Below, piece after piece: positions 7,661 to 48,209 of a DNA stretch of 64,000 nt. Origin of the DNA: Lanius collurio. Lineage: Eukaryota; Chordata; Aves; Passeriformes; Laniidae. The DNA is taken from the NCBI GenBank assembly GCA_020086605.1, contig JACBWW010000008.1, positions 12,432,119-12,496,118 on the forward strand, written 5' to 3'. The notes under the pieces are model-generated. The model worked only from the letters and a program-made list of their open reading frames with translations. It had not been told where the DNA came from and did no database searches. Numbering within the stretch: the first letter of the stretch is position 1; every line of letters starts with the position of its first letter. Both the position numbers and the translations under genes were made by a program.

Positions 7661-8817
7661 TATAGAAACATGGAATATTTTAGGTGGAAAACATCCTTAG
7701 GTTTATTAAATCCAACCATTAACCCAGCACTGCCAAGCTCACTACTAAGCTATGTCCATAAGAGGCACATCTACTGGTTCTCTAAATCCTTCCAAGGATG
7801 GTGAATCAACCTCTACCCTGGGCAGCCTGTTCCAATGTTTAACAACCTTTTTAGTGAACAGATGTTTTTTAATATCAAAACTACCCCTCCCCTGGTGCAA
7901 CATGAGGCTATTTCCTCTCGTGCTGTCACTAATTACTCAGGAGCAGAGGCTTACCCCCACCTGGGTACAACCTCCTTTCAGGCAGCTGTAGAGACCAAGA
8001 AGGACACCCTGAGCCTTCTTTTCTCCAAGTTAAACACCTTCAGCTCATACTCATAGGACTTGTGATCCAGACCTTTCACCACTTCTGTTGCTCTTCTCTG
8101 GACACATTCCAGCACCTCCATGTCCTTCTTGGAGTGAGGGGCCCAAAACTGAACACAGCATTTGAGGTGTGGCCTCACCAGTGCCGAGTACAGGGGGACA
8201 GTCCCTGCCCTGGTCCTGCTGGCCACACTGTTGCTGGTACAGGCCAGGATGCCATTGGCCTTCTTGGCCACCTGGGCACACCCTGGCTCATGTTCAGCTG
8301 CTGTCACCAGCACCCCCAGGTCCTTTTCCTGTGGGCAGCTTTGCAGCCACTCTGCCCCAGCCTATGGCACTGCCTGGGGTTGTTGTGACCCAAGGGCAGG
8401 ACCCAGCACTGGGCCTTGTTGAACCTCACACCACTGGCCTTGGCCCATGGATCCAGCCTGTCCAGCCCCCTCTGCAGAACCTTCCTGCTCTCCAGCAGAT
8501 CAGCACTCCCACCGAGCTCCCATGGTTCCATCTGTGAACTGACTGAGGGTGCATTTGATGTCCTCATTCAGATTGCTGACAAAGACAATAAACAGGGCTG
8601 GCCTTTTTAGTGAGTTGCAGGGAACAGCACTTACGACTGATGGCTGCATGGAAGTAACTCCATTCACCACCACTCTGGACCCAGCCATCCATTTTTTGTC
8701 CAGAGAAGAGCACACCCATCCAAGCTGTGAGCCAGCAGTTTCTCCAGGAGAATGCTGTGAGAAATGCTGTCAATAAAAAGCTCCTTGAGGTTCTGCTCTG
8801 CACTGCAGGGGTGGGTT
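7661..8817 (-). mobile_element. CR1 LINE, 5'-truncated, with ORF2 (reverse transcriptase) remnant
   Basis: A CR1 non-LTR retrotransposon inserted with its sense strand on minus, so its 3' end lies at the left. The left edge is the reversed CR1 tail, degraded from the usual ATAGAATCATAGAATGG start, followed by the typical 'GGGCAGCCTGTTCCA' 3'-UTR block at about 7820. From about 8000 to 8800 the minus strand carries the C-terminal half of the CR1 reverse transcriptase. Visible pieces are LLEKLLAHSLDG, VVVNGVTSM, an eroded catalytic FADD box now FTDG near 8540, LGGSADLLESRKVLQRGLDR, the [23 protein letters not shown] stretch and FNLEKRRLR. The frame is broken into at least three pieces, so no enzyme is made. 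The 5' end is missing (a full CR1 is about 4.5 kb), as is usual for this family. It is the least diverged CR1 in the window and markedly richer in GC than its surroundings. Confidence 0.95.

Positions 8818-20326: not shown

Positions 20327-20356
<30 letters not shown>
20327..20356. repeat. Uninterrupted A30 homopolymer
   Basis: Thirty consecutive A residues with sharp edges (TTTC before, GCAC after). Such a clean tract is either a microsatellite or a recent poly(A) tail of a retrocopy. I could not recognise a gene or SINE body in the several hundred bases upstream. Confidence 0.9.
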
Positions 20357-32325: not shown

Positions 32326-34024
32326 AAAAAAATTGAAACAAATTCTGGATCTGAATTACCTTGAATAACTCTCTTTTAGAGACTCTCTCATATTCAGAAT
32401 CAGGTCTGACTTCAGATTTCACATATCACTTCTGGCTGAATAAAATATAGCAAATAATCATCCACACAGTGTGAAATTCATATCCACTGATTGACAGAAA
32501 TATTTTTTAATCAGGATCAGCTGTATGCTCTATAAATGTGAGGAAGCCAATATTCCAGGATGAAGTTTATACAAAAATTAATAAGATGTGAATTGTTCTG
32601 GGGAAAAAAACTTACTTAATGGAAACTTCCCATTCATGTCCTTCCACCTGCTAAGAGCTAGGTTAACACCAAGGCACTGGCACATGGAAGAGAACGAACT
32701 TAGATAAATCTTAGAACATGTTTTTGGAAAGCATGCTGAAATCCTTTAGCTGTTTTTATGAAATTAGTACATTTTTTCAGTCCCAAAGTGACTAACTATT
32801 CAAACTTCAAACACCATAATTATTCATCACAGGTTTTTGTGTAAATTTTAGGTACATCAAATCAATCAAAACGAAAAACAAAGCCCAACTGTAAGTGTAC
32901 TCTACTTTTTATTGATTGAATTATGGGTGATAAAAATATCTGCACCACAATATCTGGAATAAATAAATAAGGGCTAATGGTTACAGTATATTATAATAAT
33001 ATATGCTGAAGGATCAATTAAGAGTCACTATATTTATAGGGAGTATAAATATTTTATGTGAAGAAACAGGAAGAGAGTGGCTCGAGGTCATTGAATGAGC
33101 CTTCCTATTGCATTAGTACAAAAGTGGCAATAGAGAAGATATGACATTTTAGCTAAACAAGTACTTTATATCCACACAGTTGAATAAACTGTTTTGTAAA
33201 GGGTACTTCAATTGGATAATGCTCTGGTAGTAAAGAAGGGCAATAACTTTTTCACAATCTACAGGGCTCTATTATCTACTCTGCAAGTGCTTCTTCTCTC
33301 CCCCCTTTTCCCAGAGGGTAAGGGGTGTGGAGTAAATTCAGTCACTGTTCATTCTGAAGAAGAGGCTCTTAATTTAGAGACATTATTAGGCATTAATTCA
33401 TAGCAAAGAATTACAAACGACTGACAGACAACAGAAGGGAAAAAAACGAAGAAGCCATTTCCTGAACAATGCTTGACCTTACCATTGTTGGTCAAACAGC
33501 AGTCTTGCAATGAAAACCAAAGTTGTTTTACCATGGAAATTAACATAAAGAGAAGAAAGTTTGTCACCAGGATTACAAAATAAAGTGAGCATATTTGATA
33601 ATGTATTTATAAATTACCACAATTTATCTACACCAACAAAACTCATTCCAAACAACATTTGTCAAAATATTTAATCCCCAGTGGTCTCAACTTATACCTT
33701 TGAAGTCAAAAGGCAATTTGATATCTTCTCTAATACTCAAAAACAGAGCCTCAGACTCCCTGAGATATACTGTGTTGGGACCCTGGCCCATTTTGAAAAC
33801 AAAAGAAACTTGCCCTCCTCACCTCACATCCACAAACAACCAGTCTGGACCTGTTCTCATACCCACACAATTACTGACTTAAATAACCAGATGGATGTAA
33901 CTCAGAAGTCTGTCAATATGCTAATGTTTCATATACAGCATGACTCCAAGTTAGTAAAATAGCCCACCCAATCACATTCTCTCAGTCCACAGCCAGCTGT
34001 GAGATGTTTGGAAACCAGTGCTGA
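32326..34024. other. Unassigned AT-rich DNA, no gene seen
   Basis: I see no gene or recognisable repeat in this stretch between the solo LTR and the next CR1 piece. Confidence 0.5.
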
Positions 34025-34528
34025 ACCATAGAACAGTTTGGGTCAGAAGGGATCTTAAAAGGTCATCTAGTCCAACACTACTGCCAGGGACATCTTCAAC
34101 TATATCAGACTGATGGCTGAGCTTACAGTTCCATACAGACTGAACTACAGTGTTTCCAGGAATGGAGCATCTACTACCTCTCTGGGCTACCTGTTCCAGT
34201 GTTTCACCAGTCTCATAATAAAATATTTCTTCCTTGTATTTAGCCTGAATCTACCCAATTTTAGTTTAAAACTCTTACCTCTTTCCTTGTTGCAATAAGC
34301 CCTACTAAAAAGTCTGTCCCCATTTTTTTTATAAGCCTCCTTTAAGTACTGAAAGGCCTTAATAAGATCTCTCTGGAGCCTTCTCCAGACTGAACAACCC
34401 CAGCTCTCTCAGCCTTTCTTTATAGGACAAGTGCTTCAGCCCTTTCATCATCCCTTCTCTGGACATGCTCTATCAGATCTATGTTTTTCCTGTACTGAGG
34501 ACTCCAGAGCTGGATGCAATACTCCAGT
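34025..34528 (-). mobile_element. Old CR1 LINE 3' fragment
   Basis: A reversed CR1 3' end. It starts with CATAGAACAGTTTGGGTCAGAAGGG, the mutated form of the usual tail, then GTCATCTAGTCCAA, the 'GGGCTACCTGTTCCAGTGTTTCACCA' block at about 34180, TCTCTGGAGCCTTCTCCAGACTGAACAACCCCAGCTCTCTCAGCC near 34370, and TCCAGAGCTGGATGCA near 34505. These match CR1 3'-UTR and terminal ORF2 sequence. It is more diverged than the copy at 7.7 kb and breaks off at about 34,528. Confidence 0.93.
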
Positions 34529-40396: not shown

Positions 40397-41310
40397 AATC
40401 ATAGCACAGCTTGGGTGGAAGAGGCCTGTAAAGGCCAACTAGTCCAAGCCCCTGCAATCAGCAGGAACATCTTCAGCTAGATCTGTTTTCTCAGAGTCCA
40501 GTCCAATCTGACCTTGAATGTTTCCAGGAATGGAGAACATACTACCTTTCTGGGCAACTTGTCCCAGTGTTTTACCACCATCAACAAAAAAATTTATTTT
40601 CTTGAACCTATTCTGAATCTACCCTCTTTACTTTAAAACCATTACCTTTGACTTATTACTGCAAGCAAAACAAGCCAAGATCTCTCAGTCTGTCCCCATA
40701 GAAGATGTGTTCAAATCTTTTGATCACTTTTGCAGCCCTTCTCTGAACCTGTTCAAATACACCTATGTCTCTTCCGTAGTGAGGAGTCCAGAGCTGGATG
40801 CAGCATTCCCTGTAGTCACACTAGTGCAGAGTACAGGGGCAGAATTAACTCCCTTGCCCTGCTGGCCACACTTCTTTTGATGCAGCCCTGGGTGCAGCTG
40901 GTTTCTGGGCTGAAAGGGCATATTGCTGAGTTGTGCCTATCTTTTAATCCACCAGTACCTCCAAGTACTTTTTGGCAGGGCTATTTTCTGTAGCCTTCAT
41001 CCCCCAGCCTGTGTTGATACTGGAGGTTGCGTCAACCCAGGCGAGGTTGGCATTTGGCCTTGCTGAATATCATGATATCCCAGTAAGTCCCCTCCTTGAG
41101 CTTGTCCAGGGCCTTTTATATGACAAGCTGCTCCTCAGGGGTGCCAACCCTATCACAGCTTGGTTTCTATCTGCAAACTTGATGGTAGTGCACTCAATCC
41201 CACTGTCTGTGTCACTGATGAAGGCATTAAAGACCAGTCCCAGCACAGACTCCTGAGGGACAACCACTTGTCATTGATCTGAAAATTGAGCCATTGACTA
41301 CTGCTAAGTT
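40397..41310 (-). mobile_element. Old CR1 LINE fragment with ORF2 remnant
   Basis: A CR1 copy on the minus strand, more worn than the one at 7.7 kb. Its left edge is AATCATAGCACAGCTTGGGTGGAAGAGGCC, a mutated CR1 tail. The 3'-UTR blocks follow (TTCCAGGAATGGAGAACATACTACC; GGGCAACTTGTCCCAGTGTT). Coding remnants start near 40,720 (CCCTTCTCTGAACCTGTTC; TCCAGAGCTGGATGCAGCA). At 41,070-41,267 the minus strand still reads the RT palm region VPQESVLG, FNAFISDTDSGIECT and KFAD, where the second catalytic Asp has become Arg (FADD to FADR). The right edge near 41,310 keeps 'GAGCCATTGACTACTGC', a CR1 ORF2 block. It is inactive. Confidence 0.93.
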
Positions 41311-44293: not shown

Positions 44294-44387
44294 ATACCCA
44301 GGAATGCTTGGTTCCTCCCCCTGGGCAGAGCATCTCACAATGGGATGATGCTCTACCCTGGGGGAGGAACCAAGCATTCCTGGGTAT
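44294..44387. repeat. 41-bp-stem inverted repeat (hairpin/cruciform) within the LTR
   Basis: The left arm (44294-44334) and right arm (44347-44387) are reverse complements with only two mismatches over 41 bp, around a 12-base loop. The outer end of the right arm runs into the TATA box at 44385. The core CAGGAATGCTTGGTTCCTCC and its complement are exact. From memory, related LTR copies carry the same hairpin, so it belongs to the LTR and did not arise locally. Confidence 0.9.
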
Positions 44388-45733: not shown

Positions 45734-46028
45734 TGTTGTAGAGAAGGGAATCCTTACAACATGTATAAGACAGCGATGAACTTGGAAGGAAAGATAAGTG
45801 ATATTTCTTTAGATGTTCAGGGATTATTTTATTTCTCCAGCCACATGACTGGAGTTCCCAGGCAGACACCAGTTATCTGACCCTGCTCTCTTTTTTGGGC
45901 CCCAGGCACACAAACCGAAACAATCGGGAACAGGTATGGGGCACAGGTGACATGGGAGCAGGGACAGGGACAGACCCGTACCCTGCAGGGTCCCTCGCCC
46001 TGGGATTTCAGGGGAAGGCACCTCCACA
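45734..46028 (-). repeat. 3' LTR of the Y-box retroelement
   Basis: In minus orientation it begins TGTGGAGGTGCC and ends CTCTACAACA. It is a direct repeat of 47,915-48,209 with the same ends. AATAAA (plus coordinates 45,828-45,833) divides a U3 of about 195 bp from a downstream part of about 95 bp. No clear TATA box is seen. Confidence 0.88.
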
Positions 46029-46042
46029 ATTCACCCTTTCTT
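46029..46042 (-). promoter_or_regulatory. Polypurine tract-like sequence before the 3' LTR
   Basis: Minus-strand AAGAAAGGGTGAAT directly abuts the TG of the 3' LTR. All but two bases are purines. Its position is where the plus-strand primer tract of a retroelement should be, which supports the LTR edge. Confidence 0.6.
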
Positions 46043-46178
46043 AAATAAAATAACATTGGAAACAGTTGGAGAAACAACAAAACATTTTCAAAGGAAAGGA
46101 AGCCACTATCTTGAGTCCCCAAATGTCCAAACAGATTTTCTTTGGAGCATCAGAAGGGAGACAGGACATGAGCACACT

Positions 46179-46748
46179 TCAGATGGAAATTGAGGAAGAG
46201 ATTTTCCTTTTTGAACCTGTAGGAATCTTAGAAAATGACAGTTCATTTCTTCCCTCCCTCCTTTTCATCCCCACCATCGGCATTGCAAAGGGATTAATGG
46301 CAAATGAAAAAGCCTGGTTTTGTGAGGGGAACCAGAAAGGGCAATTTGGGATGGGCATATATGGGGGATAAAGGGACATGGGATAAAATGGGAAGGTGGG
46401 ATAGGGGAAAGGACAGGGATTATGGGGATATTGTCCAGCATATCGACTGCCTTTGACAGGGACACCCCCAGGGCCTGTAACACATGCAGCCTGTGGGCCC
46501 TTTCTTCCTTGCACAATTTTAAATTCTACTCTTTCTCCTTCTTCTAAGCTTGGAACATCACTTTTGGGGTTATTTTTCACAACAGCAGATTTATGGACAA
46601 AAATACTTTCTCCAGTATCGTTTTTCAACAAGAAACCGTAAATTTTCTTTACATTACAGCATTTTACGTTTCCAAAAGCCCTAGCTGCGATAACTTTTTC
46701 ATTTTTCTGAGTTCCTTTGTTCTTGCTTTCACTTTCAGCTTTCCTCAT
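46179..46748 (-). CDS. Captured Y-box cold-shock-domain protein (part of a Gag fusion)
   Basis: A 189-codon intact frame encoding a Y-box-type cold-shock domain, a family of RNA- and DNA-binding proteins (YBX1, YBX2, YBX3) that package and silence mRNA. The domain covers residues 17-104: EKVIAARAFGNVK at 17-29, the RNP1-like KIYGFL at 35-40, the RNP2 motif IFVH at 49-52, KNNP at 58-61, EEGERVEF at 69-76, and the family signature TGPGGVPVKGSRYA at 91-104, which sets it apart from bacterial cold-shock proteins and LIN28. The conserved Trp-Phe before RNP1 is Cys-Cys here (30-31), so one stacking surface is lost; the other aromatic sites (F39, F50, H52) remain. The tail (105-160) is rich in Pro, Tyr and Phe, unlike the basic/acidic tail of host Y-box proteins, and contains YPMSL at 122-126. 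There are no introns, unlike the host genes. It lies in the same frame as the gag part upstream, so this ATG may be an internal Met. Which host paralogue it came from is unclear. Confidence 0.85.
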   Translation of the reverse strand: MRKAESESKNKGTQKNEKVIAARAFGNVKCCNVKKIYGFLLKNDTGESIFVHKSAVVKNNPKSDVPSLEEGERVEFKIVQGRKGPQAACVTGPGGVPVKGSRYAGQYPHNPCPFPYPTFPFYPMSLYPPYMPIPNCPFWFPSQNQAFSFAINPFAMPMVGMKRREGRNELSFSKIPTGSKRKISSSISI

Positions 46749-47105
46749 GTCAGAGCTGCCGCAGCTGTGGCCGCCAACGCGTTCCTGTCACGGGTTCTGG
46801 ACTCCTCGGGATCCCGTGTGGGGCCGTGTGGGTCCGGTTGGGCCATGCTGGTGCACGCTGACCCTGCCGGCTGCTCTGCCTTCGGCCACCTCTGCACCGC
46901 CGTTTGGCGCCGTGCTCGCTTCCCCTCTGGAGTTCCGTGTGACTGCTCCACGCTTTCTGTGCGTTGGAGCGGCTGCATGGCCAGGCCCTGTGAGGCGTTC
47001 ACGTGTGCGTGGCTTTGTATCACTGGCTCTGCTGCTGCTGCTGTCGACTGTGTGGCTGTCAGCTAATGTGGTTCCCTTCTCGCTGCCACACCCCTCTGGC
47101 TCTGC
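46749..47105 (-). pseudogene. In-frame GC-rich linker between gag and Y-box, with a TGA stop
   Basis: In the frame shared by gag and the Y-box domain, this segment reads through without a stop from just after the TGA at 47,106-47,108 to a second TGA at 46,788-46,790, then on into the Y-box frame. The product would be rich in Ala, Gly, Arg, Thr and Pro, with a short Ser run. Host Y-box proteins have a GC-rich first exon encoding an Ala/Pro/Gly-rich N-terminal domain. This segment may come from that exon or from gag; I cannot tell. A separate +1 frame at 46,745-47,023 overlaps the Y-box ATG in an ATGA, which I regard as incidental. Confidence 0.55.
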
Positions 47106-47813
47106 TCAGCGTGGTTCACTGTGGTCACCAGAGTGACTGCCACAATTGCCACTGCCTTCCTCTCCACAGGGCTCGGGCTTGGACCGTCGATCACCACGCG
47201 GCACAGGGTGGCCATTGCCGGGTCGTACTTTGGCCACCACCGCCCTCACCACTGCCTCAGGGCAAACACTGCCGGGCCCACACTGTCGTGTCGCTCCTGG
47301 CTCCACTCCCTCTGCCACCATTCTCACCACCACCCCAGCTCCCGCTGTGTCTGGCCTCACTGGCTCTCCCACGCGCAGGAGCTCCCTCGCCGCTGCCTGC
47401 AATGCACTCTGCGCCCGCGGCCAGGGCCACGCGGTCTCCAGGGTGGCGGAGGAGCCCCCTGCAACGCGCGCGCTGCTCGACCATGTGTTCACTGCTGAAA
47501 CAGCAGCGGGACAAAGCTGATATTGCTCAACAGTCTCTGAAATCAAGTAATATTCATGGAAATAGCCTTGCATCGGCACATTTTTTGATTCGGAAATTAA
47601 CTGTGTCCAAATATTCTTCCAAAAGTTCTTAGTAAGAATCAAATCCCAAGAAACATAGAAGTTTTTAAACAGCCATGCCAAAAAGTGTCTTAGTTCTCTC
47701 TGAGCTTGAATTAAGCTAAAATCTACATATTGCTGTTCAAGAATCATTTTAAGTTTAAGGTAAATGTCTCTTTGTGGTTCGGACAGCCATGAGTCCTTCC
47801 ATGAGTCCTCCAT
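47106..47813 (-). CDS. Gag-like frame: matrix-like N-terminus and GC-rich extension
   Basis: A 235-codon frame at the place of gag, starting about 100 bp after the 5' LTR. Residues 1-75 look like a retroviral matrix domain: a helical segment, then HFLAWLFKNF around residues 43-52 and a FW-x2-IWTQL segment around 64-71, a spacing seen in beta-/ERVK-type matrix proteins. There is no Gly at position 2, so N-terminal myristoylation is not expected. From about residue 100 the composition changes sharply to GC-rich codons (Ala, Val, Gly, Arg), with a loosely repeated VVR-x-V motif near 47,260-47,330. No capsid major homology region or zinc knuckle is visible. The frame ends in TGA at 47,106-47,108, and the same frame continues into the Y-box part. 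The start was chosen as the first ATG after the leader. Family placement is inferred from position and pattern. Confidence 0.6.
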   Translation of the reverse strand: MEDSWKDSWLSEPQRDIYLKLKMILEQQYVDFSLIQAQRELRHFLAWLFKNFYVSWDLILTKNFWKNIWTQLISESKNVPMQGYFHEYYLISETVEQYQLCPAAVSAVNTWSSSARVAGGSSATLETAWPWPRAQSALQAAARELLRVGEPVRPDTAGAGVVVRMVAEGVEPGATRQCGPGSVCPEAVVRAVVAKVRPGNGHPVPRGDRRSKPEPCGEEGSGNCGSHSGDHSEPR

Positions 47814-47863
47814 CGTTCAGAGATGGGACAGCAAAACGAAAGCAAGAAGAGATATCCAGAGTT

Positions 47864-47869
47864 ACTCAC
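47864..47869 (-). promoter_or_regulatory. Splice-donor-like GTGAGT in the leader
   Basis: Minus-strand ATTCGTGAGTAACT lies about 50 bases upstream of the gag ATG. GTGAGT is a strong match to the vertebrate 5' splice site. Retroviral leaders commonly have a donor here to make a subgenomic mRNA, and no matching acceptor is needed to see the motif. Use is unproven. Confidence 0.4.
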
Positions 47870-47894
47870 GAATTTTCTTCTCTAGGGATTGTTT

Positions 47895-47912
47895 GCCAGC
47901 ATTTCTCCACCA
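47895..47912 (-). other. Primer binding site-like sequence
   Basis: On the minus strand, two bases after the CA end of the 5' LTR, there is an 18-base stretch starting TGGTGGAG and ending GCTGGC. The leading TGG complements the CCA end of a tRNA, and the 2-base gap is standard for retroviruses. I could not assign the tRNA with confidence. Confidence 0.55.
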
Positions 47913-47914
47913 TT

Positions 47915-48209
47915 TGTTGTAGTGCGGGGAATCCTTACAACAAGTATAAGACAGTGATGAACTTGGAAGGAAAGATGAAGCGATATTTTTGAAGATGTTC
48001 AGGGATGATTTTATTCCTCCAGCTGCATGGCTGGAGTTCCCAGGCAGACCCCAGTCACGGGACCCTCTCTCTCTTCCCGGGCCCTGGTTACCCAAACCAC
48101 CCAATCAGGAACAGGTGTGGGGCACACGTGACATGGGAGCAGGGACAGGGACAGACCTATACCCTGCAGGGTCCCTCCCTCCAGGATTTCAGAGAGAGGC
48201 ACCTCCACA
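47915..48209 (-). repeat. 5' LTR of the Y-box retroelement
   Basis: In minus orientation it begins TGTGGAGGTGCC and ends CACTACAACA, directly repeated at 45,734-46,028. The AATAAA lies at plus coordinates 48,010-48,015, and a weak TATAGG near 48,157 may be a promoter. The terminal 35 bases are shared with the 80-bp LTR at 54,692. Confidence 0.88.

Follow-up and report, generated by a model that had tools for sequence, protein, structure and literature searches.

That retroelements can capture host genes is already known from gag-oncogene viruses and from crocodilian endogenous retroviruses (ERVs). In the transducing avian retroviruses CT10, with its gag-crk product p47, and UR2, the N-terminus of Gag is joined in frame to a host-derived domain and the remaining virus is replaced; both are exogenous and oncogenic, and their cargo is a signalling protein. 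The crocodilian elements CrocERV29 and CrocERV31 represent germline lineages that multiplied while carrying a captured host mRNA (KIT-ligand and nectin3, respectively), inserted as a separate open reading frame (ORF) that either lies between pol and env or takes the place of env (PMC4299795). In Corvus, a 2.25-kb ERVK insertion with 296-bp long terminal repeats (LTRs), corCorLTRK1b, lies near NDP and is linked to crow plumage, and polymorphic insertions show a peak at 2.4 kb (PMC7341801).

Here we describe a 2.48-kb LTR element of Lanius collurio, which lies in minus sense at positions 45734–48209 of a window of 64,000 nucleotides (contig JACBWW010000008.1, positions 12,432,119–12,496,118). 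A first-pass annotation, made from the sequence of the window alone, had proposed a retroelement with a captured host Y-box gene fused to Gag, and our analysis supports this reading. With a probability of roughly 0.85, the element is an old, decayed copy from a non-autonomous ERV family, whose single gene consists of matrix, linker, a cold-shock domain (CSD) captured from a YBX1-like host mRNA and a tail rich in proline, phenylalanine and tyrosine (P/F/Y), all in frame. As in CT10 and UR2, a Gag N-terminus continues into a host-derived domain in place of the remaining virus, but here in a fixed genomic element that has corvid relatives and an RNA-binding cargo. The multiplication of a germline lineage with captured host mRNA recalls the crocodilian ERVs (PMC4299795); unlike theirs, the cargo here is joined to matrix, and neither pol nor env domains were detected.

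A single frame and a recurring fusion

From an ATG at 47813 to a stop at 46179 (minus strand), the element contains one frame of 545 codons, free of frameshifts and interrupted by two stops (codons 236 and 342). The Gag-like ORF (47106–47813) and the CSD ORF (46179–46748), which are separate in the ORF listing, share this frame and are therefore pieces of one fused gene. The other two sense frames contain 20 and 29 stops and the antisense frames 13–17, and none of 2000 mononucleotide shuffles brought the best of its three frames down to two stops. These stop counts and shuffles rule out a chance open frame.

Searching with the Gag-like ORF by itself, a query free of CSD sequence, retrieved two Corvus moneduloides proteins, both of which carry PF00313. 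A profile built from these two proteins gave 243 matches, and among the best 120 of these we recognised at least seven members of the family: P0004–P0007 and P0009 from C. moneduloides, P0008 from Aphelocoma coerulescens, and P0010. Both species are corvids according to a taxonomy lookup. The relatives enter our analysis as predicted proteins, known without their LTRs. All seven carry PF00313 and five of them the Gag-like part; P0007 starts within it and P0010 lacks it. Beyond the CSD, P0004 soon ends and P0009 diverges. The Gag–Y-box fusion is uninterrupted in five relatives, so the further copies that the first-pass annotation had suggested looking for exist at the protein level in two corvid species, and because the in-frame junction recurs in these species the two parts are no chance neighbours.

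The same observations bear on the possibility that a Y-box processed pseudogene was placed by long interspersed nuclear element (LINE) activity into an unrelated ERV, the parts having met by chance. Genomes commonly contain processed copies of host mRNAs, and both parts of the window copy are intronless and old, as this scenario would predict. Against it stand the identical order and frame in five relatives from two species and the single frame in the window; nor could we see in the window sequence a poly(A) tail closing the Y-box part at its 3′ end. We regard such an origin as highly improbable; the recurring in-frame junction rules out that LINE activity inserted the Y-box part separately.

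The Gag-like part is predicted to adopt a matrix-like fold, and in a structural comparison its first match among viral models was CT10 p47. Neither capsid nor a CCHC nucleocapsid was detected: across the window ORFs and the seven relatives, Pfam scored nothing but the CSD at a meaningful level. The 12 ORFs scanned from the element and its edges contain neither a pol nor an env domain, which would fit helper dependence.

The terminal anatomy is that of an LTR element, much as first annotated (Table 1). Both direct LTRs have TG...CA ends when read in minus sense, each contains an AATAAA, and they differ at 48 of 294 aligned columns in addition to two 1-base gaps. The primer-binding site (PBS)-like 18-mer beside the 5′ LTR starts with TGG and resembles what we take to be a degenerate tRNA-Ala site. 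The polypurine tract stops 5 nt short of the 3′ LTR if this is counted as 295 bp, and directly at it (0 nt) if the LTR is counted as 300 bp. The flanks of the element, TTTCAC and CTTGAC, are identical at 4 of 6 bases and may represent a target duplication.

Table 1 Features of the minus-sense element in window coordinates.
Feature	Position	Strand	Details
5′ LTR	47915..48209	minus	295 bp, possibly to 48214; LTR–LTR alignment, AATAAA
PBS-like site	47895..47912	minus	TGG-initial 18-mer, 2 nt inside from 5′ LTR
Gag-like N-terminal domain	47508..47813	minus	matrix-like predicted fold; relatives
Linker	46749..47507	minus	same frame; stops at 47106–47108 and 46788–46790
Y-box cold-shock domain	46434..46703	minus	PF00313, Y-box protein 1 structures; KW-motif tryptophan replaced by C
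P/F/Y-rich tail	46182..46433	minus	common to P0005–P0008 and P0010
Polypurine tract	46034..46042	minus	AAGAAAGGG
3′ LTR	45734..46028	minus	295 bp, possibly to 46033; LTR–LTR alignment, AATAAA

The Y-box cargo and its donor

The frame at 46179–46748 (minus) matches PF00313 with E = 1.3e-17, and among solved structures its best relatives are chains of Y-box protein 1 (E = 2.5e-28), which bears out its assignment to the Y-box group. Like YBX1, YBX2 and YBX3, the family carries a CSD with the signature TGPGG(V/I)PVKGS; unlike them, it has the P/F/Y-rich tail in place of their Arg-rich C-terminal domain. No such Arg-rich domain was recognised in 12 comparisons of the tail with YBX C-termini, with shuffle fractions of at least 0.045. 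Host Y-box donor genes contain introns, and the CSD frame of the window is uninterrupted, with no introns visible in the captured frame.

Since the first three protein matches were YBX2, this protein was tried as the donor. By CSD identity, YBX1, YBX2 and YBX3 are nearly tied as closest; mean identity to YBX1 is 51–73% across the eight family CSDs. The 45 residues that follow the CSD of P0010 were more discriminating: aligned with two YBX1 rows, they scored 58 and 46, and 0 of 500 shuffles did as well in either case, compared with shuffle fractions of 0.24 and 0.044 for YBX2 and of 0.736 and 0.45 for YBX3. In the same test against YBX1, P0005–P0008 gave weak values of 0.016–0.292. The post-CSD stretch of P0010 thus aligns with YBX1, whereas its alignment to YBX2 or YBX3 is not clear.

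We also compared the CSDs in a tree of 31 sequences, made up of the window copy, the seven relatives and 23 YBX rows, the last chosen by name among the best 120 of the 243 profile matches together with three earlier matches, and used for the residue comparison as well. The eight family members share one side of a branch supported at 98/96, and one capture therefore explains them. Elsewhere the tree is less decided, with 15 of 22 inner branches open and the window row forming a long branch.

P0010 (344 amino acids, from a 1408-base contig) raises the alternative that the CSD came from a hitherto unrecorded avian Y-box retrogene, already equipped with the P/F/Y-rich tail, and not from YBX1 itself. 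This protein combines CSD and family tail with no Gag-like part; among the eight CSDs, its own is on average the most similar to YBX1 (73.1% mean identity) and lies nearest to the YBX rows in the tree. Coming from so short a contig, it may also be a truncated or diverged copy from the element family, and it carries the family's derived CSD residues. We consider a retrogene donor doubtful; P0010 could be a remnant of the donor gene, or else an early or truncated member of the family.

Age, constraint and family history

The divergence of the two LTRs amounts to a Kimura two-parameter distance of 0.188, or 0.146 without CpG sites. Slower bird rates, of 2–3e-9 per year, would date the insertion to about 24–47 million years ago. 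At the rate of 0.0158 per site per million years quoted in a crow paper (PMC7341801), it would be about 5–6 million years old. Under a rough neutral model set to the divergence of the LTRs, 4–6 stops would be expected in the 545-codon frame, with a probability of 0.06–0.22 for two or fewer and of about 0.05 for zero frameshifts, so that frame preservation in the window copy is at most a hint of constraint.

The relatives fall into two subfamilies, A (P0004, P0006 and P0007), which is nearest to the window copy, and B (P0008 and P0009). P0005 is a mosaic that switches from A to B near residue 165, as recombination between co-packaged RNAs would produce, unless the gene model has joined two copies. 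Between A and B, with P0005 excluded, identity is 31–38% in matrix and 59–65% in the CSD, whereas within subfamily A the two parts are about equally conserved. In 14 of 15 pairs of P0004–P0009 (the pairs are not independent) the CSD is better conserved than the linker, the exception being P0005–P0006.

This pattern bears on whether the cargo does anything for the element. It may be a passenger, captured by accidental template switching as in gag-oncogene viruses, with the family spreading through its LTRs and packaging signal only. LTR elements can indeed spread without coding, and the CSD tryptophan is gone from the window copy. The higher conservation of the CSD relative to the linker argues for a role of the cargo, as do the open CSD frames of all seven relatives with W, F, F and H retained at four positions, presumably RNA contacts, although open frames were a precondition for prediction as proteins and hence for these conservation counts. 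A passenger is possible, if not the reading we would choose.

Another view, that the fusion has become a host gene in corvids and that the window copy is its decayed paralogue, could account for the predicted open frames of 369–440 amino acids and for the fewer frameshifts than the neutral model expects. The unremarkable stop count does not favour it, and the many divergent copies (five crow entries, one of which, P0006, is the representative, and the only sequence examined, of a 90% cluster of 24 sequences) speak for a mobile family, as do the LTRs in the window. We find such an exaptation unlikely.

A non-autonomous ERV family remains our reading, and its dimensions can be compared with the Corvus insertions. 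In length (2.48 kb, as against 2.25 kb) and in LTR size (295 bp, as against 296 bp) the element resembles corCorLTRK1b, which comes from the same bird family as the relatives (PMC7341801). The sizes of the short Corvus ERVK insertions fit the Y-box family, a likeness by size only. Two primers from the same study (PMC7341801) matched the window element no better than shuffled primers did, in a test of little power.

Other features of the window lie outside the element. Just beyond it, positions 44294–44387 form a long hairpin, an inverted repeat of 95 columns that is 90.5% self-complementary. Three segments, 7981–8361 (minus), 34024–34518 and 40397–40895, are similar to one another, with 68–71% identity in pieces; the ORF at 7981–8361 presumably resembles the end of a CR1 LINE reverse-transcriptase ORF, and a Pfam scan of it gave no match. 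A run of 30 A occupies 20327–20356.

A candidate minimal Gag

How might such an element propagate? Transcription would start from its LTR, and the RNA would be packaged and reverse-transcribed by the enzymes and particles of an autonomous relative. The fusion protein could assist by linking RNA, bound by the CSD, to assembly sites, reached by the matrix part, with the CSD occupying the place of nucleocapsid. In a review (PMC6797609, citing Bann et al. 2014), Gag of the betaretrovirus mouse mammary tumour virus is described as interacting with YB-1 in an RNA-dependent manner, YB-1 knockdown leading to fewer particles. Read functionally, the simplest proposal is that the fusion ties the YB-1 factor permanently to matrix, so that element RNA bound by the CSD may reach assembling helper particles.

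A bolder and less probable reading is a new kind of minimal Gag, consisting of matrix and a captured YB-1 CSD, the latter replacing capsid and nucleocapsid, binding element RNA and delivering it to helper particles. It would have been kept by selection through a long spread in songbirds, which would include a recent burst in crows should the 24 members of the P0006 cluster prove to be separate loci, and the insertion near NDP might belong to the family.

The first-pass annotation knew of no bird element with a Y-box gene, and among the matches listed in the open-licence literature, judged by title, start of the abstract or passages, none describes a Gag–Y-box element. As far as we found, three things are new: the capture of a Y-box domain, the joining of this domain to matrix where the rest of Gag would be, and its presence in a multi-copy family. 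If a YB-1 factor has indeed been fused to the element's own matrix, the family would be a natural experiment on how retroviruses choose and package RNA. It would also show that the gag-oncogene route of capture can yield a lasting germline family. If crow copies match in number what the protein records suggest, existing genomes would allow selection acting on the fusion to be measured.
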